Source of the DNA: Nocardiopsis sp. MG754419
Lineage (GTDB): Bacteria > Actinomycetota > Actinomycetes > Streptosporangiales > Streptosporangiaceae
DNA: 64,000 nucleotides
Reading direction: 5' to 3'
Assembly: GCF_018207095.1 (NCBI RefSeq)
Contig: NZ_QOCZ01000009.1
Coordinates: 1-64,000 of the forward strand
Shown: one piece after another, positions 6,595 to 35,506 of the stretch
How positions within the stretch are numbered: the first letter of the stretch is position 1
Layout: every line of letters begins with the position of its first letter
Position numbers and translations under genes: made by a program
The notes under the pieces: generated by a model
The model's input: the letters and a program-made list of their open reading frames with translations, nothing else
Told to the model about the DNA's origin: nothing
Databases searched by the model: none

Positions 6595-7788
6595 GTGACC
6601 ACTTTTACTTCGCGTACCCAGGACACGTCCGCATTGGATCGTGATCCGGCCTTCGCCATGCACCGCGGCGGCAAGCTGCACGTCGCCTCCTCCGTCGACG
6701 TCAGCGACCACGCCGGCCTCTCCCTGGCCTACACCCCCGGCGTCGCCCGCGTCTGCGACGCGATCGCCGAGGACGCCGCCCTGGTCGAGACCTACACCTG
6801 GAAGAGCAACCTGGTCGCCGTCGTCACCGACGGGACCGCGGTGCTGGGTCTCGGCGATATCGGCCCCGAGGCCTCCCTGCCGGTGATGGAGGGCAAGTCG
6901 CTGCTCTTCAAGCAGTTCGCCGACGTCGACTCCGTGCCGATCGCCCTCAACTGCACCGACGCCGACGAGATCGTCGAGACCGTCGTGCGCATGTCGCCGT
7001 CCTTCGGTGGCATCAACCTGGAGGACATCGCCGCCCCGCGCTGCTTCGAGATCGAGGCCAAGCTGCGTGAGCGACTCGACATCCCCGTCTTCCACGACGA
7101 CCAGCACGGCACCGCCATCGTCACCGTCGCCGCGATGCACAACGCCGCCCGCCTCACCGGCCGCACCCTGGCCGACCTGCGGGTCGTCGTCTCCGGTGCG
7201 GGCGCCGCAGGTGTCGCCGTCACCAAGATGCTCGTCGACGGCGGTATCGGTGACATCGCCGTCGCCGACTCCAAGGGCATCATCTACGACGGCCGCGAGG
7301 GCCTCACGCCGATCAAGCGCGAAATCGCCGCCATCAGCAACAAGGCCGGTCTGAAGGGCTCCATCGAGAGCGCTCTGGCCGGAGCGGACGTGTTCATCGG
7401 CCTGTCCGCCGGAGAGGTCCCGGAGTCGGTCGTGGCCACCATGGCCGAGGACGCCATCATCTTCGCCATGGCCAACCCGGACCCGGAGATCCACCCGGAC
7501 GTCGCCCGTAAGCACGCGAGCGTCGTCGCCACGGGGCGCAGCGACTTCCCCAACCAGATCAACAACGTCCTGGCCTTCCCGGGTGTGTTCCGGGGCGCCT
7601 TCGACGTCCGTGCCTCGGACATCACCGAGAACATGAAGCTGGCCGCGGCCAAGGCCCTGGCCGACCTGGTCGGCGACGACCTGACCGCCGACTACGTCAT
7701 CCCGAGCTCCTTCGACGAGCGGGTGGTCCCGGCGGTCTCCGCCGCGGTCGCCGCGCAGGCCCGTGAGGACGGCGTCGCCCGCCGCTAG
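6595..7788 (+). CDS. NAD(P)-dependent malic enzyme
   Basis: 397 residues, the usual length of short bacterial malic enzymes, starting at GTG 6595. It catalyses oxidative decarboxylation of malate to pyruvate, linking the TCA cycle to gluconeogenic or lipogenic pyruvate and NAD(P)H. The malic domain shows [14 protein letters not shown], the catalytic Lys region [19 protein letters not shown] and metal-binding [11 protein letters not shown]. The Rossmann fingerprint is [17 protein letters not shown], and the C-terminal part has [10 protein letters not shown] and [16 protein letters not shown] versus NADP preference is not clear. Monocistronic, divergent from the ABC importer. Confidence 0.93.
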
Positions 7789-7940
7789 CCGCGCCTGCTC
7801 GGGCCTCCACCGTGGTTCGGCCCGCGATCGAGGACTCGAAGGGCGGTGTCCTTCGGGGGCCGACCTTCGGGGAACACCCCCTGTGGTCGACCCCCAGGGG
7901 TGGCACCGCTCGGTGACACCCCCGCGTCCCGGCGCGAACA

Positions 7941-7988
7941 CGAGGGGCCCGAAAGACCGCGACCCCGTCCGGTCCTCCGGGCCCCTCG
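7941..7988. terminator. Hairpin between malic enzyme and the HicB-like gene
   Basis: 11-bp perfect inverted repeat (CGAGGGGCCCG at 7941-7951, complement at 7978-7988) with a 26-base loop, in the 268-bp gap between convergent genes. It shares the GAGGGGCCCG core with other terminators in the window. The rest of the gap is GC-rich with no open frame that looks coding. Confidence 0.55.
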
Positions 7989-8056
7989 GCCGTTTCCGAG
8001 CACGCGCCCGGCCGGACCCGCCCACGCGGAACCGACGCCCCTCGGGACGCCGGTCC

Positions 8057-8236
8057 TCACATCAGCTCCAGACGGGTGTCGCCCTCCGCGACCAGGAGGG
8101 CGAACTCCGCGCGCAGGTCGGCGAGGGCGGCGTCGGGGGTGTCGCCCACACCGCGGGCGCCGACACCGGGCCGCAGGCGCGCCCGAGCGCACCACACCCC
8201 GGCCTCGTCCTGCTCGATCGTGTACGGGACCAACAC
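8057..8236 (-). CDS. 59-residue HicB-like antitoxin-fold protein
   Basis: GTG start at 8236, preceded by GGAAGGAAC; product begins MLVPYTIEQDEAGVWCARAR and ends EGDTRLELM. The pattern of a beta strand with IEQDEAGVW, then GVGDTPDAALADLR, matches the HicB antitoxin half-fold (partial RNase H-like), where G-D-T-x-x-x-A before a helix is the hallmark. It lacks any DNA-binding C-terminal domain and there is no HicA-like partner next to it. It could be an orphan antitoxin or a member of the small HicB-like proteins with other roles. Coding status is supported by the ribosome site, the third-position GC pattern and the motif. Confidence 0.6.
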   Translation of the reverse strand: MLVPYTIEQDEAGVWCARARLRPGVGARGVGDTPDAALADLRAEFALLVAEGDTRLELM

Positions 8237-8276
8237 CGTTCCTTCCCTTCCTCGTCATCCGCCCGAGCGTCGCCGA

Positions 8277-8318
8277 GGGGCCCGTTGGACCACGCCCCCG
8301 TGTGGTCCAACGGGCCCC
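8277..8318 (-). terminator. Terminator of the DUF4097-PadR operon
   Basis: 17-bp perfect stem (GGGGCCCGTTGGACCAC at 8277-8293, complement at 8302-8318) with an 8-base loop, 12 bases past the PadR stop codon on the minus strand. Confidence 0.85.
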
Positions 8319-8330
8319 GTGCGCCTGTGG

Positions 8331-9365
8331 TCAGTCGCTCCGTTCCGCGTCCTCGCCGGTGGCGGTCGACCAGGGGTCCCCGCCCGTCTTCGGCATGGGG
8401 CGCGCCTCACGCCGCTCCGAGGGGTCCTCCCCCTCGCCTTCGGAGGTGGGGGTGGAGGACGGCTCGCGGGGGGCGTCGGTCTCACCCGTGGTGGGCTCGT
8501 CCTCGCCACGCTCGCTCGGGCCACGGCCCTCGTCGTCGTGTTCGCCCTTGGTCGGCCCCCACCGGCCCATGTCGCGGCGGATCACCTCGACGGTGTCGTC
8601 GAGGATCCGACGCAGGTCGTGGGCGGCGGACCCGCCGACCTGACCGGCGCCCCGCACCATGTCGCGCACGCGCGTGGAGAAGTCCCGCAGGGCCTGCTCG
8701 AACTCGGGGCCCTCACGCCCGGCCTCCTCACGCCCGGCCTCTTCGCGTTCGGAGCCCTCACCCTCGGTCCCGCTCGCGCCGCCGTGTTCGGAGCCGGGAC
8801 GGCCCCAGGCGGCGCCGAACGCGCCGAAGCCCTGGGCGAAGCGCTCCCACTCACGGGCCCACATGCCGCCGTCCCCGCACTCCCGGGCACGGTCGCCCTC
8901 GCGGCGGGGTTCCTCGTCCCCCTCGCCCTTCTCGCGCCCGGCCTCGTCGGAGGCGGCGGTGCGTTCGGACTCCTCACGGCGGGCCCCACCGGCGGCGAAC
9001 TTCAGTTCCTCGCGCAGGGAACCGATGGTCGCGCGCACGTCCTGCTTGACCGCGCGGGCGATGTCGCGCACCGAGTCGGTGATCTCCTGCTCCAGGTCGT
9101 CCAGGTCGCTCTCACGGGCGCGCAGTTCCTCGCGGCCCTTGTCGGTGAGGCTGTAGACCTTGCGTCCGCCCTCCTCCGTGTGGGTGACCAGTCCCTCCTC
9201 CTCCAGCCGGGCGAGCCGGGGGTAGATGGTGCCGGGGGAGGGCGAGTACACGCCCAGGAAGCGGTCGCGCAGCAGGCTGATGATCTCGTAACCGTGGCGC
9301 GGGCTCTCGTCGAGCAGTTTGAGAAGGTACAGGCGCAGTCTTCCGTGGCCGAAGATGGTGCTCAT
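8331..9365 (-). CDS. PadR-family transcriptional regulator with long charged C-terminal extension
   Basis: 344 residues. Residues 1-80 form a PadR winged helix (MSTIFGHGRLRLYLLKLLDE, PRHGYEIISLLRDRF, PSPGTIYPRLARLEEEGLV, GRKVYSLTDKGREEL). About 85-125 is a helical dimerisation segment. From about 130 on the chain is low complexity, rich in Glu, Gly, Arg and Asp with near-repeats of EEAGREEAGREG. A second helical patch at about 225-275 (FEQALRDFSTRVRDMVRG, DDTVEVIRRDMGRW) precedes a disordered tail. Typical PadR proteins are 110-190 residues, so the extension is unusual. The ATG abuts the DUF4097 stop (TGAATG), indicating coupling. Likely an autorepressor of this operon. Confidence 0.88.
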   Translation of the reverse strand: MSTIFGHGRLRLYLLKLLDESPRHGYEIISLLRDRFLGVYSPSPGTIYPRLARLEEEGLVTHTEEGGRKVYSLTDKGREELRARESDLDDLEQEITDSVRDIARAVKQDVRATIGSLREELKFAAGGARREESERTAASDEAGREKGEGDEEPRREGDRARECGDGGMWAREWERFAQGFGAFGAAWGRPGSEHGGASGTEGEGSEREEAGREEAGREGPEFEQALRDFSTRVRDMVRGAGQVGGSAAHDLRRILDDTVEVIRRDMGRWGPTKGEHDDEGRGPSERGEDEPTTGETDAPREPSSTPTSEGEGEDPSERREARPMPKTGGDPWSTATGEDAERSD

Positions 9366-10217
9366 TCAGGCCCCCTCTGGGATCGCGGCCGGAGCCTCGG
9401 GCGCACGTCGCAGCAGCGCGGCCCGACCGGACACGGTGTTGACACTGATGGAGGCGGGGTCGACGCCCACGCCGATCTTGCCGCTCAGAGTGGTGCGGGC
9501 CGGCGCGCTGTTGCGGTCCAACCCGAAGTCCGAGTCCACGTCGCCGGTGACGGCGCGCAGTTCCACCGCGGCCGAACTCTCCGAGGGCACCCGCAGGGCC
9601 ACCTCGCCCGACACGGTGTTCACCCGCACCCGGGCGGAGGAGGTCAGGTCGGTGTCGACCAGGACCGAACCCGAGACCGTCTTGGCCCGCAGCTCCGACA
9701 GTCGGCCGCCCGCCACCGCCAGCTGCCCGGTGGCGGTGTTGAAGCCCAGTGTCCCGCCCGGGCCGCGCACGGAGGCGTTGCCGTCGGCGGTGTGCAGTTC
9801 GGTCTCGCCCGAGACCTCGTCCAGGGTGACCTCGCCGGTGGCGGTCCGGATCTTGGTGCGCGCGCTCAACCCGGCCGCCACCACCGGGGCGGTGGCCGTG
9901 GTGACCTCGACCGGGCAGTCCCGGGGGACCCGCAGGTTCACGGTGGCCCGGCGCGAGTGCACGTTCTTGTACCCGGTCAGCTGCAGGGGCTTGAGGCGGT
10001 CCAGGAAGCCCTGGCCGGTCAGGTCCCGATAGTGGATGGTGAGGATCCCCGCCTCCTGGGTGACCTCCAGGGGCTCGCCCTCGATGTCACCGATCTCGAA
10101 GGTGACGGGGTCGTCGGTGGGGATGATGTTGACCTGGCCGCCGACGATCCGCACCTTCAGGGCGACGATGCCGTCGAGGGTGTGGGTCATCGGACTGTCG
10201 ATGGTCCAACGTGCCAT
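9366..10217 (-). CDS. DUF4097 beta-strand repeat protein
   Basis: 283 residues, no signal peptide or membrane segment. Repeats of the type TATGEVTLDEVSGETELHTA, VNTVSGEVAL and RAVTGDVDSDFG run through residues 110-265, giving the right-handed beta-solenoid pattern of the DUF4097/DUF4098 family. DUF4097 genes are often paired with PadR or with envelope-stress regulators; the biochemical role is unknown. First gene of a two-gene operon, directly followed by padR with no gap. Paired direct repeats lie 34-72 bp upstream of its start. Confidence 0.87.
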   Translation of the reverse strand: MARWTIDSPMTHTLDGIVALKVRIVGGQVNIIPTDDPVTFEIGDIEGEPLEVTQEAGILTIHYRDLTGQGFLDRLKPLQLTGYKNVHSRRATVNLRVPRDCPVEVTTATAPVVAAGLSARTKIRTATGEVTLDEVSGETELHTADGNASVRGPGGTLGFNTATGQLAVAGGRLSELRAKTVSGSVLVDTDLTSSARVRVNTVSGEVALRVPSESSAAVELRAVTGDVDSDFGLDRNSAPARTTLSGKIGVGVDPASISVNTVSGRAALLRRAPEAPAAIPEGA

Positions 10218-10251
10218 CGTGAACCCTTTCGTTCGCTCTCTCTGACTTCAC

Positions 10252-10289
10252 GATATGTCGCGTCTGGAGCGAACTCAAGATATGTCGCG
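10252..10289 (-). promoter_or_regulatory. Paired repeats, candidate PadR operator
   Basis: Two identical 11-bp copies of GATATGTCGCG at 10252-10262 and 10279-10289, starting 27 bp apart (between two and three helical turns). They lie upstream of the DUF4097-PadR operon. Autoregulation by PadR proteins through repeated sites in their own promoters is common in the family; binding here is inferred. Confidence 0.55.
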
Positions 10290-10351
10290 GATTTCGGGGG
10301 TCGATTCGGGGGTCTCTCCGGGTCGACCCCGAGAACCGCTCCGGGCACACG

Positions 10352-10385
10352 CGAGGGGCCCGGGTCGTTCGACCCGGGCCCCTCG
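10352..10385 (-). terminator. Terminator of the kgd-DUF6104 operon
   Basis: 16-bp perfect stem, CGAGGGGCCCGGGTCG (10352-10367) with its complement (10370-10385), separated by only TT, so the top will open into a small loop. It lies 30 bp past the DUF6104 stop on the minus strand and is among the most stable hairpins in the window. Confidence 0.85.
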
Positions 10386-10414
10386 GCCGTCACACCGCTC
10401 GACGCGGTGCCGTG

Positions 10415-10597
10415 CTACTCCTCTTCGTCCTCGTCGTCCAGCCGGGCCAACCAGGTGGCCAGCCGTTCGACGGGCGTCTCGAACTCGGGGTTGATGTCGG
10501 TGAACACCCGCAGCTGCTCGGCGAGCCAGGCGAAGCTGACCTCCTCGTCGCCGCGGCGGTTCTCCAACTCCTCGATTCCGCGATCGGTGTAGTACAT
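10415..10597 (-). CDS. DUF6104 family small acidic protein
   Basis: 60 residues, ATG at 10597. It opens MYYTDRGIEELENRRGDEEV and ends in an acidic DDEDEEE tail, with the central FAWLAEQLRVFTDINPEFE conserved in a small actinobacterial family that I associate with DUF6104. It begins 4 bases after the kgd stop and must be cotranscribed with kgd. Function unknown; the position invites the guess that it acts with or on Kgd. Confidence 0.8.
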   Translation of the reverse strand: MYYTDRGIEELENRRGDEEVSFAWLAEQLRVFTDINPEFETPVERLATWLARLDDEDEEE

Positions 10598-10601
10598 GGC
10601 G

Positions 10602-13600
10602 TTACTCGGCGGGCGGGAACACCGTGTCCACCAGGGCTCGCTGCTCCGCCTCGTGGCGCTTGGCCGAACCGGCCGCGGGCGCGGAGGAGGCCGGACGCGA
10701 GATCCGGGTGAACGGGCGGTCCAGCTGCTCGGAGAAGACGAGCGCGACGAAGGGCCACGGACCCATGTTCGCCGGCTCCTCCTGGACCCACAGGACCTCG
10801 CCCGCGTTCGGGAAGGCCTTGAGCTGCTCGCGGATCTCCTCGGTCGGCAGCGGGTACAGGCGCTCCGCGCGAATGATCGCGGTGTGCTTGTCGCCGCTCT
10901 TGCGACGGGCCGCGTCCAGCTCGTAGTAGATCTTGCCGGAGCAGATGACCACACGGCGGACCTTGTCCGGCGTGATCGAGTCGTCCCCGATCAGCGGCTG
11001 GAAGTGGCCCGACGTGAAGTCGGAGGCCGCGGAGGTCGCCGACTTCAGACGCAGCAGCGACTTGGGCGTGAACACCACGAGCGGGCGCTCGACCGGCGAC
11101 TTCGCCTGCCAACGCAGCAGGTGGAAGTAGCTGGCCGGGGTGCTCGGCATCGCGACGGTCATGTTCTCCTGCGCGCACTGCTGCAGGAACCGCTCGATGC
11201 GGGCCGAGGAGTGGTCCGGGCCCTGGCCCTCGTAGCCGTGCGGCAGCAGCAGGGTCACGCTGGAGCGCTGACCCCACTTCTGCTCACCCGAGCTGATGTA
11301 CTCGTCGATGACCGTCTGGGCGCCGTTGACGAAGTCGCCGAACTGGGCCTCCCACATGGTCAGCGTGTCGGGACGGGTCAGCGAGTAGCCGTACTCGAAG
11401 CCCAGCGCCGCGTACTCGCTCAGCAGCGAGTCGTGCACGTGGAACTTGGTCGTGCCGTTGTCGAACTGCTTCAGCGGCGTGTGGGTCTCGCCGGTGTCGC
11501 GGTCCATGAGCGAGGCGTGACGCTGTCCGAAGGTGCCGCGACGGCTGTCCTGACCGATGAGACGGACCGGGTGGTCGTCCAGCAGCAGCGAGCCGAAGGC
11601 CAGCAGCTCACCGGTGGCCCAGTCGATCGCGTCGGTCTCGACCATGGTCGCGCGACGGGTCAACTGCGGGGCCAGACGCGGGTGCGGCGTGAAGCCGTCG
11701 GGCAGGTTCACCTGGGTGTCGATGACCCGCTTGACGGTCTCGGAGCTGATCGCCGTCTCGACCTTGGAGTGGACCAGACGCGACTCTGTGAACACCTGCG
11801 GCTTGACCACGGCGCCCGGCTCGATCGGCTTCTTCTCGACCTCGCGGGTCTCGGTGAAGGCGCGCTCGAGTTCGCTCTGGTAGTCGCGCAGGGCCTGCTC
11901 GGCCTCTTCCACCGTGATGTCGCCGCGGCCGATGAGGGCCTCGGTGTACAGCTTGCGGGTGGAGCGCTTGGCGTCGATGACGTCGTACATGAGCGGCTGG
12001 GTGAACGCGGGGTTGTCGCCCTCGTTGTGCCCACGACGCCTGTAGCAGACCAGGTCGATGACGACGTCCTTGTGGAACGCCTGACGGTAGGCGAAGGCCA
12101 GATCCGCGACCCGGACCACGGCCTCGGGGTCGTCCCCGTTGACGTGGAAGATCGGCGCCTGGACCATCCGCGCGACGTCGGTGGCGTACACGCTGGAGCG
12201 GCTGTCGGAGGGGGAGGTGGTGAAGCCCACCTGGTTGTTCACGATGACGTGCACCGTGCCACCGGTCCGGTAGCCGCGCAGCTGGGACAGGTTCAGGGTC
12301 TCGGCGACCACGCCCTGACCGGCGAACGCCGCGTCACCGTGGATGAGGATGGGCAGCACGGTGAACCCGTGCGGGCCCTTGTCCAGCACGTCCTGCTTGG
12401 CGCGGACGATGCCCTCGGCGACCGGGTTGACGGTCTCCAGGTGGGACGGGTTGGCCGACAGCGAGATCTGGATCTTGTCGCCGTCGCGCGTCTCGAAGAG
12501 CCCCTCGGTGCCCAGGTGGTACTTGACGTCACCGGAGCCGTGCGCGCTGCGCGGGTCGAGGTTGCCCTCGAACTCACCGAAGATCTGCCCGTAGGACTTG
12601 CCACAGATGTTGGCCAGCACGTTCAGGCGACCACGGTGGGCCATACCGATGACGGCCTCGTCCAGCTCCGACTTGGCGGCGCGGGAGATCACACCGTCCA
12701 GCAGCGGGATGAGGGACTCGCCGCCCTCGAGCGAGAAGCGCTTCTGACCCACGTACTTGGTCTGCAGGAAGGTCTCGAACGCCTCGGCGCTGTTGAGTCG
12801 GTGCAGGATGTGCAGCTGCTCGTCACGGTCGAGCTTCTCGTGCTCGCGCTCGACGTGCGACTGCAGCCACTCCCGCTCCTCCGGGCTCTGGATGTGCATG
12901 TACTCGATACCCACCGTGCGGCAGTAGGTGTCGCGCAGCACGCCCAGAACGTCGCGCAGCTTCATGACCTGCTTGCCACCGAAGCCCCCGGTGGGGAACT
13001 CGCGGTCCAGGTCCCAGAGCGTCAGGCCGTGCTGGAGCACGTCCAGGTCCGGGTGCTTGCGCTGCTCGTGGTCGAGCGGGTTGGTGTCGGCCATGAGGTG
13101 GCCGCGCACACGGTAGGCGTGGATCAGCTCCTGGACCCGGGTGGTCTTGTCGAGCTGGGTCGCCTTGTTGACGTGGATGTCCTGCACCCAGCGGACCGGC
13201 TCGTAGGGGATCCGGAGCGAGTTGAAGATCTCGTCGTAGAACCCGTCATCGCCCAGCAGCAGCTGGTGGATCCGACGCAGGAACTCACCCGACTGGGCAC
13301 CCTGGATGATCCGGTGGTCGTACGTCGAGGTGAGCGTCATGACCTTGCTGATGCCCAGCTCGCTCAGGGTGTCCTGGGACGCGCCCTGGAACTCGGCCGG
13401 GTACTCCATGGCCCCGACGCCGAGGATGGTGCCCTGTCCGGGCATCAGGCGCGGCACCGAGTGCACGGTGCCGATGCCGCCCGGGTTGGTCAGGCTGATC
13501 GTGGTGCCCTGGAAGTCCGGAACGCCCAGCTTGTTGTTGCGGGCCTTGCGGACCAGGTCCTCGTAGCCGCTCCAGAACTCGTTGAAGTCCATCTCGTCGG

Positions 13601-29729: not shown

Positions 29730-31214
29730 ATGCCACCGACACTCGGTGCGCTGCTGCGCACGCCCAAGCTGCGGTTGCGCCTGCTCACCGGCGGAGACCG
29801 GCTGGACCGGCAGGTCGAGTGGGTGGCGGTCAGCGAACTCACCGACCCCACGCCCTACCTGGCCGGGGGCGAGCTGGTGCTCACCACCGGGGTGCGGTGG
29901 GCGGAGGAGATGCCCGACCTGCGCTCCTACGTGCGTCGCCTGGCCGAGCGCGACATCGCCGGGGTGGGGTTCGGCGCCGCGGTCGTGTGGGAGCGCACCC
30001 CCGACGAGCTGTGCGCGGCGGCCGAGGAGTTCGGCGTGACCCTCGTGGAGGTGGCGCGCGAGACCCCCTTCATCGCGGTCGGCAAGGAGGTCTCGCGGCT
30101 GCTCGCCCAGGAGGAGTACGAGGGGCTGGGGCGGGCCTTCACCGCCCAGCGCGCGCTCACCCGGGCCGCCCTGAGCGGGGCCGGTGCGGTGGTGGACCGG
30201 CTCGCTCGTGAACTCGACGGCTGGGTGGTGCTGATGGAACCCGACGGCGCGGTCCGGCACGCCGCCCCGGCCTCGGCGGCCGACCACGCGTACCGGTTGG
30301 CTCCCGAACTGCCCCGGCTGCGCGGTGCCGGTCCGCGGGCCGGCGCCTCCGTGGTCTCGGGCCGTGAGCACGTGGCCCTCCAGTCCCTGGCTGCCGGTCG
30401 CCGGGTGCGCGGGTTCCTCGCCGTGGGCGCCCGGGAGGGGTTCGGTTCGCACGACCGCACCCTGGTGCACGCCGCGGTCTCGCTGCTGACGCTGGAACTG
30501 GAACGCCCCGCCGCGGAGGTGGGCTCCGGGCTCGTCCCCGGTGTGGTGGCCGCGCTCTTCGACGGTGCCCTGGACCCGACGAGTCCGGGGGCCGCGGCGT
30601 TGGCTCGCGTCCTGCCCGCCGCACCGGTGGTGGTGGCCGCCGCCCAGGACCCGCCGCCGGAGGGGCCGTGGCCGGAGGGCGTGTGGGGCACGGAGACCAC
30701 CGACGTGTCCACCCCCGGTACCGCGCGCACGCTCCTCCTCGCCGCGGCCGACCGGGCCGACCTGCTGCCCGAGGTGTGCGACGAGCTCTTCGAGGGGCCG
30801 GTGGGTCTGAGCGAACCCGTGGACTACAGCGAGCTGGCCGTCGCCCGTGCCCAGGCCGAGCGCGCCCTGTCCGTGGCGGTGGAGGAGGCACGCGCGATCG
30901 TGCGCTCCGGTGATCTGCCCGGCGGCCTTCTGGGGATGACGGACACCCCGGCCGGGCTCCGGTTGGCCGACGACCTGCTCGGCCCTCTCGACCGGCAGCG
31001 CAACGCCGCCGAACTGCTCGCCTCGCTGCGCGCCTACCTCGCCGCCTCCGGACGCTGGGACGCGGCGTCCGAGAGCCTGGGGGTGCACCGACACACCCTG
31101 CGTTACCGGATGCGGCGCATCCGGGAACTGCTCACCGTGGATCTCGACGACCCCGATCACCGCGTGGAACTGTGGATCGCGCTCCGTGTCCGGGAAGGGC
31201 GCGGTCGACCCTGA
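29730..31214 (+). CDS. PucR-family transcriptional regulator, gabT-linked
   Basis: 494 residues from ATG 29730 with AGGGGAGGGG. N-terminal PucR domain (about 1-125: PTLGALLRTPKLRLRLLTGG, YLAGGELVLTTGVRW), a variable middle, and a C-terminal HTH_30 (about 430-485: NAAELLASLRAYLAASGRWD, LGVHRHTLRYRMRRIRELL). Divergent from gabT, so it probably activates gabT in response to GABA or a related amine. Only distantly similar to the PucR protein encoded at 25659; the two look like separate lineages rather than a local duplication. Confidence 0.9.
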   Translation: MPPTLGALLRTPKLRLRLLTGGDRLDRQVEWVAVSELTDPTPYLAGGELVLTTGVRWAEEMPDLRSYVRRLAERDIAGVGFGAAVVWERTPDELCAAAEEFGVTLVEVARETPFIAVGKEVSRLLAQEEYEGLGRAFTAQRALTRAALSGAGAVVDRLARELDGWVVLMEPDGAVRHAAPASAADHAYRLAPELPRLRGAGPRAGASVVSGREHVALQSLAAGRRVRGFLAVGAREGFGSHDRTLVHAAVSLLTLELERPAAEVGSGLVPGVVAALFDGALDPTSPGAAALARVLPAAPVVVAAAQDPPPEGPWPEGVWGTETTDVSTPGTARTLLLAAADRADLLPEVCDELFEGPVGLSEPVDYSELAVARAQAERALSVAVEEARAIVRSGDLPGGLLGMTDTPAGLRLADDLLGPLDRQRNAAELLASLRAYLAASGRWDAASESLGVHRHTLRYRMRRIRELLTVDLDDPDHRVELWIALRVREGRGRP

Positions 31215-31325
31215 GTGCCCCTTCTTCGTCACCCTGAGTGAAATTCGCTGCGGGTTCCTGCGTTCCCCGGGTGGGGGCGCGCGGAATGCACCACAATGGG
31301 ACCCGATAGCACGGAGTAATCACGT

Positions 31326-31358: not shown

Positions 31359-34300
31359 GTGAGGTCACTGCGGGACGAGGCACAGATCGGACCGGCCGCG
31401 GTCCACACCGCCGGCGGTCCGGTCGGCGAGACGGGCGCCCAGGGGGTCGGGGTCGGGACGGCCTCGCGACGCTGGAAACCCCCGGTCGATCAGGGCGAGG
31501 TCCGTTCGTTCCTGGCCTACCTGCGCTCCTGCCTGCACCGGGAGGCGGTCCACGGCCACGTCGTGGACGCCGAACACCTGGACTCCGACACCTGCGCCTG
31601 TCTGCCCGCCGGGCCCGAGCTGCTCTTCAGCGGGGCCAGGGACACCCTGCCCCTGCACCACGAGAGCGCCCGCGTCATGCGGCTCGCCGGGCGCTACGGC
31701 CAGGCCCTGCGCTACGGCTACCCCCTCGTCGTCCTGCCGGGCGGGCCCGAGGACGGTCCGGGCGAGCCACGGGTGACGTTGCCGCTGCTCACCGTCGACG
31801 TGCGGGTCGTGGACGAACACGAGGAACGCCACGTGGGCGACCGGACGGGCGTCGGCGACGCGCTGTTGGTCCGCGCGGTCGGCCCTCCCGACGTCAACAC
31901 CGCCCTGCTGGCGCTTCTGGGCATCACCGACCCCGAGGACCTCTTCGAACTCCGCACCCGGCTGCGCGCCGGGGCGCCCGACGTCTTCCACCGCCCCGCC
32001 GCCGTCGCCGACCTGGCCGCCAAGGTCCGCACCCTGCTCACCCGGCTGGAGATCGAGCGGGTGGACGACATCGCCCCGCTCGGTACCCGGGGGCTGCCCC
32101 GGCGGCTGCACATCGGAGCGCACAACACCGCCGTGTTGTTCCGCGCGGGGCCCGGCGGGCAGCCCGAGGTCGACGAATCCCGCCCCGGCAGCGTCGAGGG
32201 CCTCCTGGCCGACCTCGACCCCACCGACAGGGACGGTCTGGACCCCGACGCGATCGGCGGCACCGCCCTGGAGGCCCTCCTGGGGGCCCGTCCGGCCGGT
32301 GGTTCCACCGACCGCGACCACGGATCGACCACGGCACGGCCGACCCGGTCCCTCCTGAGGCGCGGGGCCGGTCGGCGTGCCGACGCCACGCGGGACGCGA
32401 CCCCGTCGGTCGTCCCCGTCTCCACCACCGCGCTCGGCCAACCCCAGTACCGGGCGTTGCGGGCCGCCATGCACGAACAGCTCACCGTGGTCGCCGCCCC
32501 ACCGGGCGGTGGTGTGCACGACCTCGTGGACGCCATGGTCCGCACCGCCGTCACGGCCGGACAGCGCGTCCTGGTGTGCGGGCGCACCGAGGCCGACGTC
32601 GAGGCGGTCTTGGGCCGGGCCGACACCGACCCCGGCCACCCCGTCGTCCGGGCCGGCGGCGCCGGCGGGCGTGCCGACGAGGTGCACCTGCTCACCCGTC
32701 TCCTGGGACAGCGCTCGGGCGCCCTCCCGGTCTCCCTGACCCCGGACGAGGACGACCCCGACCGCACCGACGACCTCGGTGCCGCCTGGGCCCGGGTCCA
32801 CGACGTGTGGAACGCCATGGACACCATGGCCTCCGGCGGACACGCCCTGGCCCACCTGGCCGAGGAGCGCGGCCGCAGCATCGCTCTCGGCTGGGACCCC
32901 GAGACCCTGTTCACCCCCGAACGCGGCGGCCCCGAGTACTGGCTGCACCGCGCCGAACGCGCCGCGGCCCGCGGTCTGGGCGGCCTGTCCCACCGCGCCG
33001 CCGTGCGCCGGGAACTCGGCGTGACCACCGACCCCGACAGCCTGGCCCGACTGCGCGCGGTGGCCCGCCTGGAGAGCGAGTGGCGTGAGGCCGTCGACCG
33101 TCGGACCCGGTGCGCGCCCCTGGCCGAGCTCACCGGTGACCTCGCCCGCGCCCTCGACGACCACCGACGTGCCGCGGGACGCCGCCTGAGCACCATCACC
33201 GAGCCCCGCCTGTGGCGCGGCCGGTCCGCCCTCGAGAACCGTCTGGAGACCCTGAACTGGCACCACGGCGACGGTCGGACGCAGCTCAGCGGTCTTCTCG
33301 ACACCCTGCCCGCCTGGGTCTGCCGCACCGACCAGGCCCGGGCCCTGCCCTCGCGGGCCGGACTGTTCGACCTCGTGATCGTGGTGGGTGCCGAGCGGAC
33401 CCGGGTGGGCGAGCTCCTGCCCGTCCTCTACCGGGCCGACCGCGCCGTGGTCGTCGGCGACCCGGCGCACCCCGGGCCGCTCACCGTGCTGGAGCCCGAG
33501 GAGGAGCGCCGAGCCCTGGCCACCGCCGGACTCACCGCCGACCACCTCGATGACCGCGCGCTGCGCCACGGCTCCGGCTCGGCGCTGTGCGCCGCCTACA
33601 AGGCGGCTCCGACCATGATCTGGCTGGACGAGCAGCGGGGCGCGCCTCGCGCCCTGGCCACGGTGGCCTCCCGTCACTGTTACGGGGATCGGATCTCGGT
33701 GACCACCGAACCCGCTCCGGCCGACGGCCCGGCCTTCGACTGGCGTGACGTCGCCGGAGAGTGCCAGGCCGCCCCGGGGTCCTCCTACGTCAACCGGGAG
33801 GAGGCCTACCGGGTCGCCGTGGTGGTCGACGAACTCGACCAGGTCCTGCCCGAGGGGCACACGATGGTGGTGGTCGCTCCGTTGCAGCCCCAGGCGGCGC
33901 TGGTCCGCCGTCTGCTGCGGCAACGGGTCCTGCGCCACCGGGTCCGCGTCGGGGGACCGGATCTGCTGACCGAGGGGGTGGGAACGGCCGATGTCACCGT
34001 GCTGTCCCCGATGCTCTCCACCGGGGCGCCCGCCATCGCCGAACGGCGCGTGCGTCGGATGACCCACCTGTGGGCGGCGGTGCTCACCCGGACCCGGGGC
34101 CGTCTCGTGGTCGTGGGCGACCGGTCCCACTGGTCCGAGGGCGACGGGCCCCTCGCCGACCTGCTCGCCGGGGCCGTGTCCACCGCCGGTGTCGCCACCG
34201 CCGCCGACCCGGCCGGCGCCTCCCTGGTGGAGGCCCTGCGCACCGCCGGCACCGACGTCACCGTCGGACCGCGCATCCACGGATGGCCCGCGGACCTGCT

Positions 34301-34490
34301 GGTCCGGTACGGGGCCCGCGGCGTCGTGCTCCTGCTCGACCGTGAACCCGACGGCGCGGCCCTGCGCCGGTTGCTGGCGCGTGGTGAGGCCCTCAACCGG
34401 TCGACCGAGGAACTCGTCGTGATCGTTCCCGCCTGGCGCTGCCTGGCCGACCCCCACGCCCTGGTCGAGGAGATCCTCGCCGCCTGCTGA
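31359..34490 (+). CDS. Degenerate DNA2/NAM7-type superfamily 1 helicase (pseudo-helicase)
   Basis: 1043 residues, GTG start with AGGGGGAC. Residues 1-345 form an unrecognised N-terminal part, followed by an SF1 scaffold. Q-motif-like GQPQYRAL (360-367). A Walker A-like APPGGGVHD (380-388) lacks the Lys and Thr/Ser. FDLVIVVGAER (670-680) stands where FDLVIIDEASQ would be, so Walker B Asp-Glu are lost. VVGDPAHPGPL (698-708) is motif III; WLDEQRGAPRALATVASRHC (755-774) matches LDEQYRMHP...SRLFYGD; TADVTVLSPM and VLTRTRGRLVVVGD (908-921) are motifs V and VI. Residues 955-1043 resemble a Vsr/DUF559-type nuclease domain that keeps one Asp (ADLLV) but not the ExK pair. The frame is intact and codon use is normal, so it is expressed and selected, probably as a non-enzymatic scaffold. 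Monocistronic. Confidence 0.75.
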   Translation: MRSLRDEAQIGPAAVHTAGGPVGETGAQGVGVGTASRRWKPPVDQGEVRSFLAYLRSCLHREAVHGHVVDAEHLDSDTCACLPAGPELLFSGARDTLPLHHESARVMRLAGRYGQALRYGYPLVVLPGGPEDGPGEPRVTLPLLTVDVRVVDEHEERHVGDRTGVGDALLVRAVGPPDVNTALLALLGITDPEDLFELRTRLRAGAPDVFHRPAAVADLAAKVRTLLTRLEIERVDDIAPLGTRGLPRRLHIGAHNTAVLFRAGPGGQPEVDESRPGSVEGLLADLDPTDRDGLDPDAIGGTALEALLGARPAGGSTDRDHGSTTARPTRSLLRRGAGRRADATRDATPSVVPVSTTALGQPQYRALRAAMHEQLTVVAAPPGGGVHDLVDAMVRTAVTAGQRVLVCGRTEADVEAVLGRADTDPGHPVVRAGGAGGRADEVHLLTRLLGQRSGALPVSLTPDEDDPDRTDDLGAAWARVHDVWNAMDTMASGGHALAHLAEERGRSIALGWDPETLFTPERGGPEYWLHRAERAAARGLGGLSHRAAVRRELGVTTDPDSLARLRAVARLESEWREAVDRRTRCAPLAELTGDLARALDDHRRAAGRRLSTITEPRLWRGRSALENRLETLNWHHGDGRTQLSGLLDTLPAWVCRTDQARALPSRAGLFDLVIVVGAERTRVGELLPVLYRADRAVVVGDPAHPGPLTVLEPEEERRALATAGLTADHLDDRALRHGSGSALCAAYKAAPTMIWLDEQRGAPRALATVASRHCYGDRISVTTEPAPADGPAFDWRDVAGECQAAPGSSYVNREEAYRVAVVVDELDQVLPEGHTMVVVAPLQPQAALVRRLLRQRVLRHRVRVGGPDLLTEGVGTADVTVLSPMLSTGAPAIAERRVRRMTHLWAAVLTRTRGRLVVVGDRSHWSEGDGPLADLLAGAVSTAGVATAADPAGASLVEALRTAGTDVTVGPRIHGWPADLLVRYGARGVVLLLDREPDGAALRRLLARGEALNRSTEELVVIVPAWRCLADPHALVEEILAAC

Positions 34491-34627
34491 CCCCTTCCGG
34501 CGTCCCTCACCGGGGTCGGTTCCGACCGCGGACCGCCCTATCCTGAGGGCGACGGACACATGCCCGCGCGACCCCCGACGACGCCCGCCTCCCGGGCCGG
34601 GGCGAGGGCACGACGAAGGGGACACGG

Positions 34628-35506
34628 GTGCCTGAGGGCCACACACTGCACCGGTTGGCGGCGCACTTCGACAAGACCTTCGGCGGCTCCGCGGTGCGGG
34701 CCACCAGCCCCCAGGGGCGCTTCGTCGAGGGGGCCGCGCGGCTGGACGGTCGTGTCCTCACGGTGGGGGAGGCCCACGGCAAGCACCTCTTCCTCGGGTT
34801 CGACTCCGGGGCGTGGCTCCGGGTCCATCTGGGCCTGTACGGTGCCTGGACCTTCGGCGACGCCGACGGTGAACGCCACCTGGGCGCGCCCCGCGCCCCC
34901 GGTGCCGAGCGGATCGACCTCGACCGCGACCCCGACGGCTTCGTGGTCCCGCCCGCACCCGTGGGTGCCGTGCGGGTGCGCCTGGTCAACAGCACCGGCT
35001 GGGCCGACCTGCGCGGCGCCTCGGCCTGCGAGGTCATCACCATCGATGACAAGCGGGCCGTCCAGGACCGTCTCGGGCCGGACCCCCTGCGACCCGACGC
35101 CGACCCCGAACGGGCCTGGCGCCTCGTCTCCCGCTCGCGCACCACCATCGCGGCGCTGCTCATGCGCCAGGACGTCATCGCGGGCATCGGCAACATCTAC
35201 CGTGCCGAATCACTGTTCCGCGCGCGGATCGACCCGATGACCCCCGGCCGGGAGCTGGGACGGGAACGGTGGGAGGCCCTGTGGGAGGACCTGTCCGGGC
35301 TGCTCCGGGACGGGGTGCGCGACGGCCTCATCATCACCACCCGGCCCGAGCACCGGCTCGATCCGGACGCGCGTCCGGTGCCCCGGCCCGACACCCTCTA
35401 CGTCTGTTACCGGACCGGCGATCCCTGCCGTGTGTGCTCCTCGCCCATCGCCGCCACCGAGCTCGCCGGCCGCACCCTGTACTGGTGCCCCGGCTGTCAG
35501 GGCTGA
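34628..35506 (+). CDS. nei: DNA glycosylase/AP lyase, endonuclease VIII (Nei/Nei2) family
   Basis: 292 residues, GTG start with GAAGGGGACACGG. After Met removal the protein begins PEGHTLHR, with catalytic Pro2 and Glu3; the PEGHT start is typical of actinobacterial Nei2 rather than Fpg. Lys52 in GKHLFLGF is the conserved beta-hairpin Lys. The H2TH domain has VIAGIGNIYRAESLFRARI, and the C-terminal zinc finger uses Cys267, Cys270, Cys287 and Cys290. It removes oxidised bases and cleaves the abasic site. The gene lies 137 bp after the pseudo-helicase, transcribed the same way. Confidence 0.93.
   Translation: MPEGHTLHRLAAHFDKTFGGSAVRATSPQGRFVEGAARLDGRVLTVGEAHGKHLFLGFDSGAWLRVHLGLYGAWTFGDADGERHLGAPRAPGAERIDLDRDPDGFVVPPAPVGAVRVRLVNSTGWADLRGASACEVITIDDKRAVQDRLGPDPLRPDADPERAWRLVSRSRTTIAALLMRQDVIAGIGNIYRAESLFRARIDPMTPGRELGRERWEALWEDLSGLLRDGVRDGLIITTRPEHRLDPDARPVPRPDTLYVCYRTGDPCRVCSSPIAATELAGRTLYWCPGCQG

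Follow-up and report, generated by a model that had tools for sequence, protein, structure and literature searches.

The DNA analysed here (the window) is a stretch of 64,000 nucleotides from Nocardiopsis sp. MG754419 (contig NZ_QOCZ01000009.1), and the gene under study, P0001, lies between genes for a PucR-type regulator and an Fpg/Nei-family DNA glycosylase (Table 1). We confirmed that its product is a relative of the UPF1/IGHMBP2-type SF1B helicases that lacks the Walker A Lys/Ser and the Walker B Asp/Glu, and we refer to it as a pseudo-helicase. Both RecA lobes of UPF1 type can be recognized, with V386/H387 where Walker A would read GK[TS] and V676/G677 where Walker B would read DE. The first lobe carries the dead Walker A (residues 383-387) and the dead Walker B (676-677) and retains the GDP of motif III (700-702); the second has lost the motif IVa and motif V residues and retains Arg911 of motif VI. 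Part of the N-terminal region aligns with the region that precedes RecA1 in UPF1 and Ighmbp2. The linker shows ratios of nonsynonymous to synonymous substitution rates (dN/dS) of 0.41-0.81 in three comparisons, and its predicted local distance difference test score (pLDDT) is below 50 at residues 311-348. With its full frame of 1043 residues, its missing Walker residues and its UPF1-type lobes, the protein is the intact pseudo-helicase that an earlier, sequence-only reading of this DNA had proposed.

Table 1. Features of the pseudo-helicase locus, in window coordinates
Feature	Position	Strand	Basis
PucR-type regulator, frequent upstream neighbour	29730..31214	+	Pfam
Promoter-like block, about -108 to -60, CGGgTTcc.gcgTTC ... 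AT.CaCcACAATGg	31251..31299	+	Conserved upstream of gene
Pseudo-helicase gene P0001, 1043 aa	31359..34490	+	Open frame
N-terminal region, residues 41-310	31479..32288	+	Common to catalytic paralogues
Linker, residues 311-350, variable, low model confidence	32289..32408	+	dN/dS, pLDDT
RecA1 lobe and helical insertion, residues 351-710	32409..33488	+	Model, motif alignment
RecA2 lobe, residues 711-940	33489..34178	+	Motif alignment
C-terminal domain, residues 941-1043, restriction-endonuclease-like (REase-like) order of elements	34179..34487	+	Predicted model, alignment
Fpg/Nei-family DNA glycosylase, conserved downstream neighbour	34628..35506	+	Pfam

All 40 Nocardiopsis-type genomes searched (the congeneric set) contain a match to the pseudo-helicase: 33 have complete open frames, five are cut by contig ends (G009, G017, G026, G027 and G036, with G017 covering residues 2-150 only) and two are frame-broken. 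The 33-row congeneric alignment was drawn from 37 genus genomes; it leaves out the fragments in G013, G017, G027 and G036 as well as the later-found genomes G190, G250 and G251, and three of its rows (L011, L024 and L030) are partial. The Walker A Lys is absent from every row. Its position (386) is occupied by V in 13 rows, A in 11, L and D in three each, I in two and M in one, and its variability exceeds that of 87% of core positions. At the Walker B Asp (676) the residues are also mixed (V17, L10, A4, I1, T1), the Glu position (677) is Gly throughout, and the motif IVa Arg has become Gly in 32 rows. Retained in all 33 are G383, G385, the motif III GDP and Thr910-Arg911. The ATP site is thus largely unconstrained, and the scaffold is held. 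The earlier reading had proposed checking whether Val386, Val676 and Gly677 are conserved as substitutions: in the 33 rows only Gly677 is invariant, the two Val positions varying freely, and Val386 as a conserved substitution is rejected. The 25 named loci are recorded as Nocardiopsis in 23 cases and as Streptomonospora nanhaiensis (L067, genome G001) and Glycomyces fuscus (L060) in one each. Both of the latter are Nocardiopsis-like loci and the names may be wrong, with G001 grouping with the window's genus.

Among 200 genomes of the family, representing 68 genera, the dead lineage occurs in 29, spread over nine genera (g1, the window's genus, and g30, g43, g52, g62, g64, g65, g75 and g77). 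Fourteen of the 18 non-congeneric carriers were read as rows, drawn from the eight other genera, and none has the Walker A Lys. The full Walker B DE is found only in L082 (g75), the Asp is retained in g64 and in two of three g62 rows, the Glu is retained in g30, and Arg911 of motif VI is gone in g75, g64 and g62 (five of the 14 rows). No orthologue in either set therefore keeps GKT together with DE, and recent local decay is ruled out by the dead state across congeneric orthologues and by their 33 complete frames. The gene is not a pseudogene either. The simplest order of loss would be that the Lys disappeared in the common ancestor and that Walker B then decayed separately by genus. Degenerate motifs on an intact, long-kept frame mark the family of the window protein as pseudohelicases. 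Across 121 genomes of the order, the dead lineage is confined to the window's family; the single match beyond that family, in G038 at 28% identity, is a helicase that has intact Walker motifs and lacks a caspase domain.

The catalytic relatives of the pseudo-helicase, newly found here, are caspase-helicase fusions, most of them with a small gene in front, which is the architecture of the published EACC1-caspase conflict systems. These proteins of about 1240 residues have intact GK[ST], DEA[ST], FQG and TRA[RK] motifs, and the genome of the window encodes one of them (locus L034 on G000:C38). The N-terminal caspase domain of this copy matches Pfam Peptidase_C14 (E=1.4e-15) and, over the cut-off, NF047832 'caspase, EACC1-associated type' (E=2.7e-43). 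For the catalytic copies, the counts at position 386 cover nine rows, L043 being cut by a contig end. When the profiles of the two families are compared, residues 51-1035 of the dead one align with the catalytic one at 100% probability (E=3e-108, 34% identity), and this together with the tree shows common descent with caspase-helicase proteins. The tree comprises 32 rows with motif columns removed; seven of these come from the 33-row congeneric alignment and 14 from the 18 other-genus carriers, and the catalytic copies L043 and L044, the latter broken, were left out of it and of the caspase alignment. In this tree the 21 dead rows form one clade with a support of 100/100 and a stem of 0.60.

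Directly upstream of the catalytic gene lies a small gene encoding 130-182 residues with one hydrophobic segment (judged by eye); in L034 it overlaps the caspase-SF1B-helicase gene (7228-11414). These small proteins form one cluster in 14 of 16 catalytic loci, with a weak match in L092 (1.6e-5) and none in L093, and they gave no credible match to any Pfam or NCBIfam model. Since no library model names the small protein, calling it EACC1-like rests on its position, its hydrophobic segment and the published description, and the two genes of L034 are predicted to be an EACC1-like conflict system with a helicase effector. The EACC1-caspase pair was described as a two-gene conflict system by Kaur et al. 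in 2020 (PMC7159879), and the text of section 33 of that paper names many C-terminal domains, an SF1 helicase not being among them. At the dead loci, the PucR regulator usually stands where the EACC1 gene would lie directly upstream, and no match at E≤0.1 was obtained to a profile built from the 14 small upstream genes, a profile itself unverified as EACC1.

A caspase domain is still present on the dead protein in four genera (g62, g64, g65 and g75), where the four proteins scanned match NF047832 at E=3e-22 to 8e-11, all below the cut-off. The caspase catalytic pair, formed by the His in SGHG and the second Cys in DCC, is found in 15 of 15 catalytic rows and is replaced in six of six dead rows. 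No caspase domain was detected by tblastn (E≤1e-3) in the window or at the dead loci of g1, g30, g43, g52 and g77, and the window protein accordingly has no His-Cys dyad of this kind. These five genera form one sub-branch (97/94).

Comparison of the two families identified 94 positions conserved in dead and catalytic rows alike, and 30 that are conserved in dead rows but different in catalytic rows. Half of the latter (15 of 30) fall within the helical insertion of lobe 1 (residues 470-665), which may have become a new interface, although this stretch is aligned with less certainty. In the C-terminal domain the elements are predicted in the order helix-three strands-helix-strand-helix, and Asp979 and Asp994 are invariant in 22 of 22 congeneric rows. 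We placed a Vsr/DUF559-like E-x-D/K motif there by eye; at what is presumably its Glu position, a hydrophobic residue is found in dead and catalytic copies alike. An MTES_1575 match (E=0.13) was seen in the tail of the outgroup L045 only, and in none of the other four tails scanned. A PD-(D/E)xK fold of the Vsr/DUF559/MTES_1575 nuclease type is weakly supported. The degenerate nuclease-like tail of the earlier reading fits in its order of elements, but the missing Glu is not peculiar to the dead protein; as catalytic copies also lack it, loss of the nuclease residue does not go together with loss of the helicase residues.

Pairwise dN/dS values (NG86) for the pseudo-helicase are 0.24-0.40 in six pairs, of which one covers just residues 1-306, and they indicate purifying selection. 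Values for pucR are similar (0.24-0.35, six pairs), and those for nei are lower (0.11-0.21, five pairs). Retention and these ratios bear out the proposed selection for a non-catalytic role, the non-catalytic nature being presumed. A catalytic paralogue was found in only 12 of the 40 congeneric genomes, compared with 40 of 40 for the dead copy; among these 12, the paralogue in G026 is cut by a contig end and that in G021 has one TGA counted inside, though an open frame covers it. In G006 (L044, contig C11) the catalytic caspase-helicase lies in several frames, and the dead copy in the same genome is open. An EACC1-type caspase match (E≤0.001) is present in 22 of the 40 (17 over the cut-off) and in 22 of the 36 good-quality genomes, leaving 18 of 40 (14 of 36) without a match at this threshold.

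Within the genus the pseudo-helicase belongs to the core genes and is inherited vertically, and it mostly sits between pucR and nei. Of the 25 congeneric loci, 22 have PucR upstream (a cut accounts for one of the remaining three), as do eight of 14 other-genus loci, and Nei is downstream in 24 of 25 (L072 is cut) and in 11 of 14; in g65, the same contig carries nei some 6 kb further downstream. A defence-island context is ruled out by the near neighbours, which are aminotransferase (by eye), PucR, Nei and LacI-type genes (Pfam). No phage match was found for the window protein. Plasmid cargo was rejected on 780 plasmid records with partial matches, none of which had a place covering 80% of the query, in a search for which the query was the catalytic paralogue rather than the window protein. 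The conserved block upstream of the gene, aligned in 17 congeneric sequences with L056 left out of the count, is promoter-like in sequence. The gap between the pseudo-helicase and nei ranges from about 64 to 2324 bases, and in the window (34491-34627), as in many of the congeneric gaps inspected, a TA[TC]CCT-like box recurs in it (judged by eye), a possible nei promoter. Gap size and box suggest that nei has its own promoter and is transcribed separately.

Our preferred reading, which we consider reasonably likely, is that the window gene is a conflict effector that lost both of its activities and was domesticated into a scaffold that binds without catalysis. Its ancestry, the loss of catalytic residues and the selection on it are well supported by the comparisons above. 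The protein would be unable to hydrolyse ATP, and without an ATP cycle the two RecA lobes could not translocate or unwind, from which we infer that it acts by binding. Most likely, the old helicase surface would hold a nucleic-acid structure or a protein partner, and the bound scaffold would present the N-terminal and C-terminal domains. A possible analogue is the Deinococcus PriA pseudohelicase, which binds fork DNA and DnaB without ATPase activity; PriA belongs to SF2, and we know of no conflict-system ancestry for the Deinococcus protein. More tentatively, and with some doubt, a whole caspase-helicase effector could have become a permanently disarmed immune protein, in which both centres died, perhaps in the common ancestor, and from which one branch shed the protease. 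The scaffold, now a core gene, would sense or sequester invader or damaged nucleic acid by binding alone, in parallel to the pseudo-caspase and pseudo-helicase regulators of animal immunity.

Several observations weigh against the preferred reading or parts of it. The structural model is of no more than fair quality (mean pLDDT 65, predicted template modelling score 0.54) and mostly poor in lobe 2, where pLDDT falls below 50 at residues 758-811 and 885-949, and the best fold matches, obtained with VIA-align in a comparison that barely tests the C-terminal domain, have large root-mean-square deviations of about 11-14 Å. The isoelectric point of the core ranges from 5.4 to 11 among dead copies and so does not clearly point to a retained nucleic-acid surface. 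The dead clade and the Nocardiopsis-type catalytic clade are joined, relative to other catalytic rows, at only 89/65, and because one sub-branch has no caspase domain, death of the caspase in the common ancestor is no more than a possibility. Moreover, dN/dS above that of the adjoining nei implies moderate constraint, the frame is broken near residue 147 in G022 and at several places in the low-quality G013 (84% complete), and G138, one of three g52 genomes, has no pseudo-helicase match.

Other explanations can be weighed against the same evidence. Much as cFLIP is a dominant-negative brake on caspases, the dead copy might pair with catalytic EACC1-caspase-helicase proteins and prevent their suicide response from misfiring. 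The two share domains in the same order with 34% identity over them, a dead caspase domain persists in four genera, and inactive modules in related systems were proposed by Kaur et al. (PMC7159879) to be dominant-negative or decoys. Nevertheless, we regard such a brake as rather unlikely, since 28 of 40 congeneric genomes have the dead gene with no catalytic paralogue found, 18 have no EACC1-type caspase match at E≤0.001, and the caspase domain, a likely contact, was not found in the window's lineage. Retention of the dead protein where no such system is detected argues for an independent role, and the earlier idea of a regulator of an active paralogue is not upheld. Conflict-effector ancestry, weak similarity to the defence helicases MkoC (E=1.9e-8) and PLuB_AAA (E=1.6e-6) in the helicase part, and the free drift of former ATP-site residues on a kept scaffold would also suit a decoy that binds phage proteins which would otherwise inhibit active helicases or caspases, thereby protecting the cell or triggering a response. 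However, decoys usually turn over quickly, and the evolution of this protein is moderate rather than fast; its fixed chromosomal locus beside metabolic and repair genes further makes this account improbable.

The regular presence of Nei downstream, even at the distance seen in g65, raises the alternative of a DNA-repair accessory of the glycosylase, for example one that recognizes unusual DNA structure. This we hold to be very unlikely: separate transcription is suggested by the gaps and the box before nei, five genera (g28, g32, g45, g67 and g70) have a close nei (69-74% identity) and no pseudo-helicase match, and two g52 loci carry the pseudo-helicase without that nei adjoining. That the gene is a slowly decaying relic without function would fit a dN/dS above that of nei and frame breaks in two of 40 genomes, but it is largely refuted by purifying selection and by 33 complete frames, with five of the other seven genomes merely cut by contig ends. 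Conservation across nine genera and of the upstream block also opposes it, and the catalytic paralogue in G006, by contrast, is broken into several frames, so that a relic would be the least credible of these accounts.

The window protein shares ancestry with NF047832-caspase-SF1B-helicase proteins that have an EACC1-like upstream gene, as in the described EACC1-caspase system (PMC7159879), but the window lineage has no detected EACC1-like partner, caspase domain or intact Walker motifs, and it occupies a fixed locus by housekeeping genes. Unlike UPF1/IGHMBP2/Dna2-type SF1B helicases, it has lost the Walker A Lys, the Walker B Asp/Glu, the motif IVa Arg and the motif V Gln. The helicase part matches MkoC/MkoA, PLuB_AAA, ProA and Hhe in the defence library and NCBIfam; however, these models come from other, longer architectures, NCBIfam scores are far below cut-offs, and PADLOC sets no cut-offs. 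PriA of Deinococcus radiodurans, as described, is likewise a bacterial helicase with degenerate Walker A and B that is retained in its lineage, but it is a replication-restart protein whose Walker A is altered less severely, from K to R (PMC4504706). Utp25 also combines vestigial helicase motifs with a kept scaffold, but it is eukaryotic, of DEAD-box type and involved in ribosome assembly; its description calls it only the second pseudohelicase proposed (PMC9539457). The pseudohelicases of these two accounts (PMC4504706, PMC9539457) belong to a recognized class with very few members, and a literature search of limited range returned no account of this protein, of a dead caspase-helicase or of a pseudo-helicase of caspase-conflict ancestry. 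Living intermediates are available as catalytic relatives, dead caspase with dead helicase, and dead helicase alone, and with this series the order in which catalysis was lost and the gene domesticated can be tested directly. The series also suggests that multicellular bacteria can disarm predicted suicide or conflict effectors and retain them as core genes. The pseudo-helicase itself is a tractable subject for studying what is left for a helicase scaffold to do without ATP.

Some minor features of the protein and its locus were also recorded. The window protein has three Lys in 1043 residues and 11.5% Arg; Lys poverty as an adaptation was set aside, because several neighbouring high-GC genes are similarly Lys-poor. 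PucR and Nei lie near each other without a pseudo-helicase in g32, and in L100 (G069) they flank what looks by eye like a LURP-one-like gene, again with no pseudo-helicase. Finally, in two congeneric genomes (L050 and L063) pucR is separated from the pseudo-helicase by about 4 kb of extra DNA, which contains an ABC-ATPase-like match to the window gene W06 (40%).

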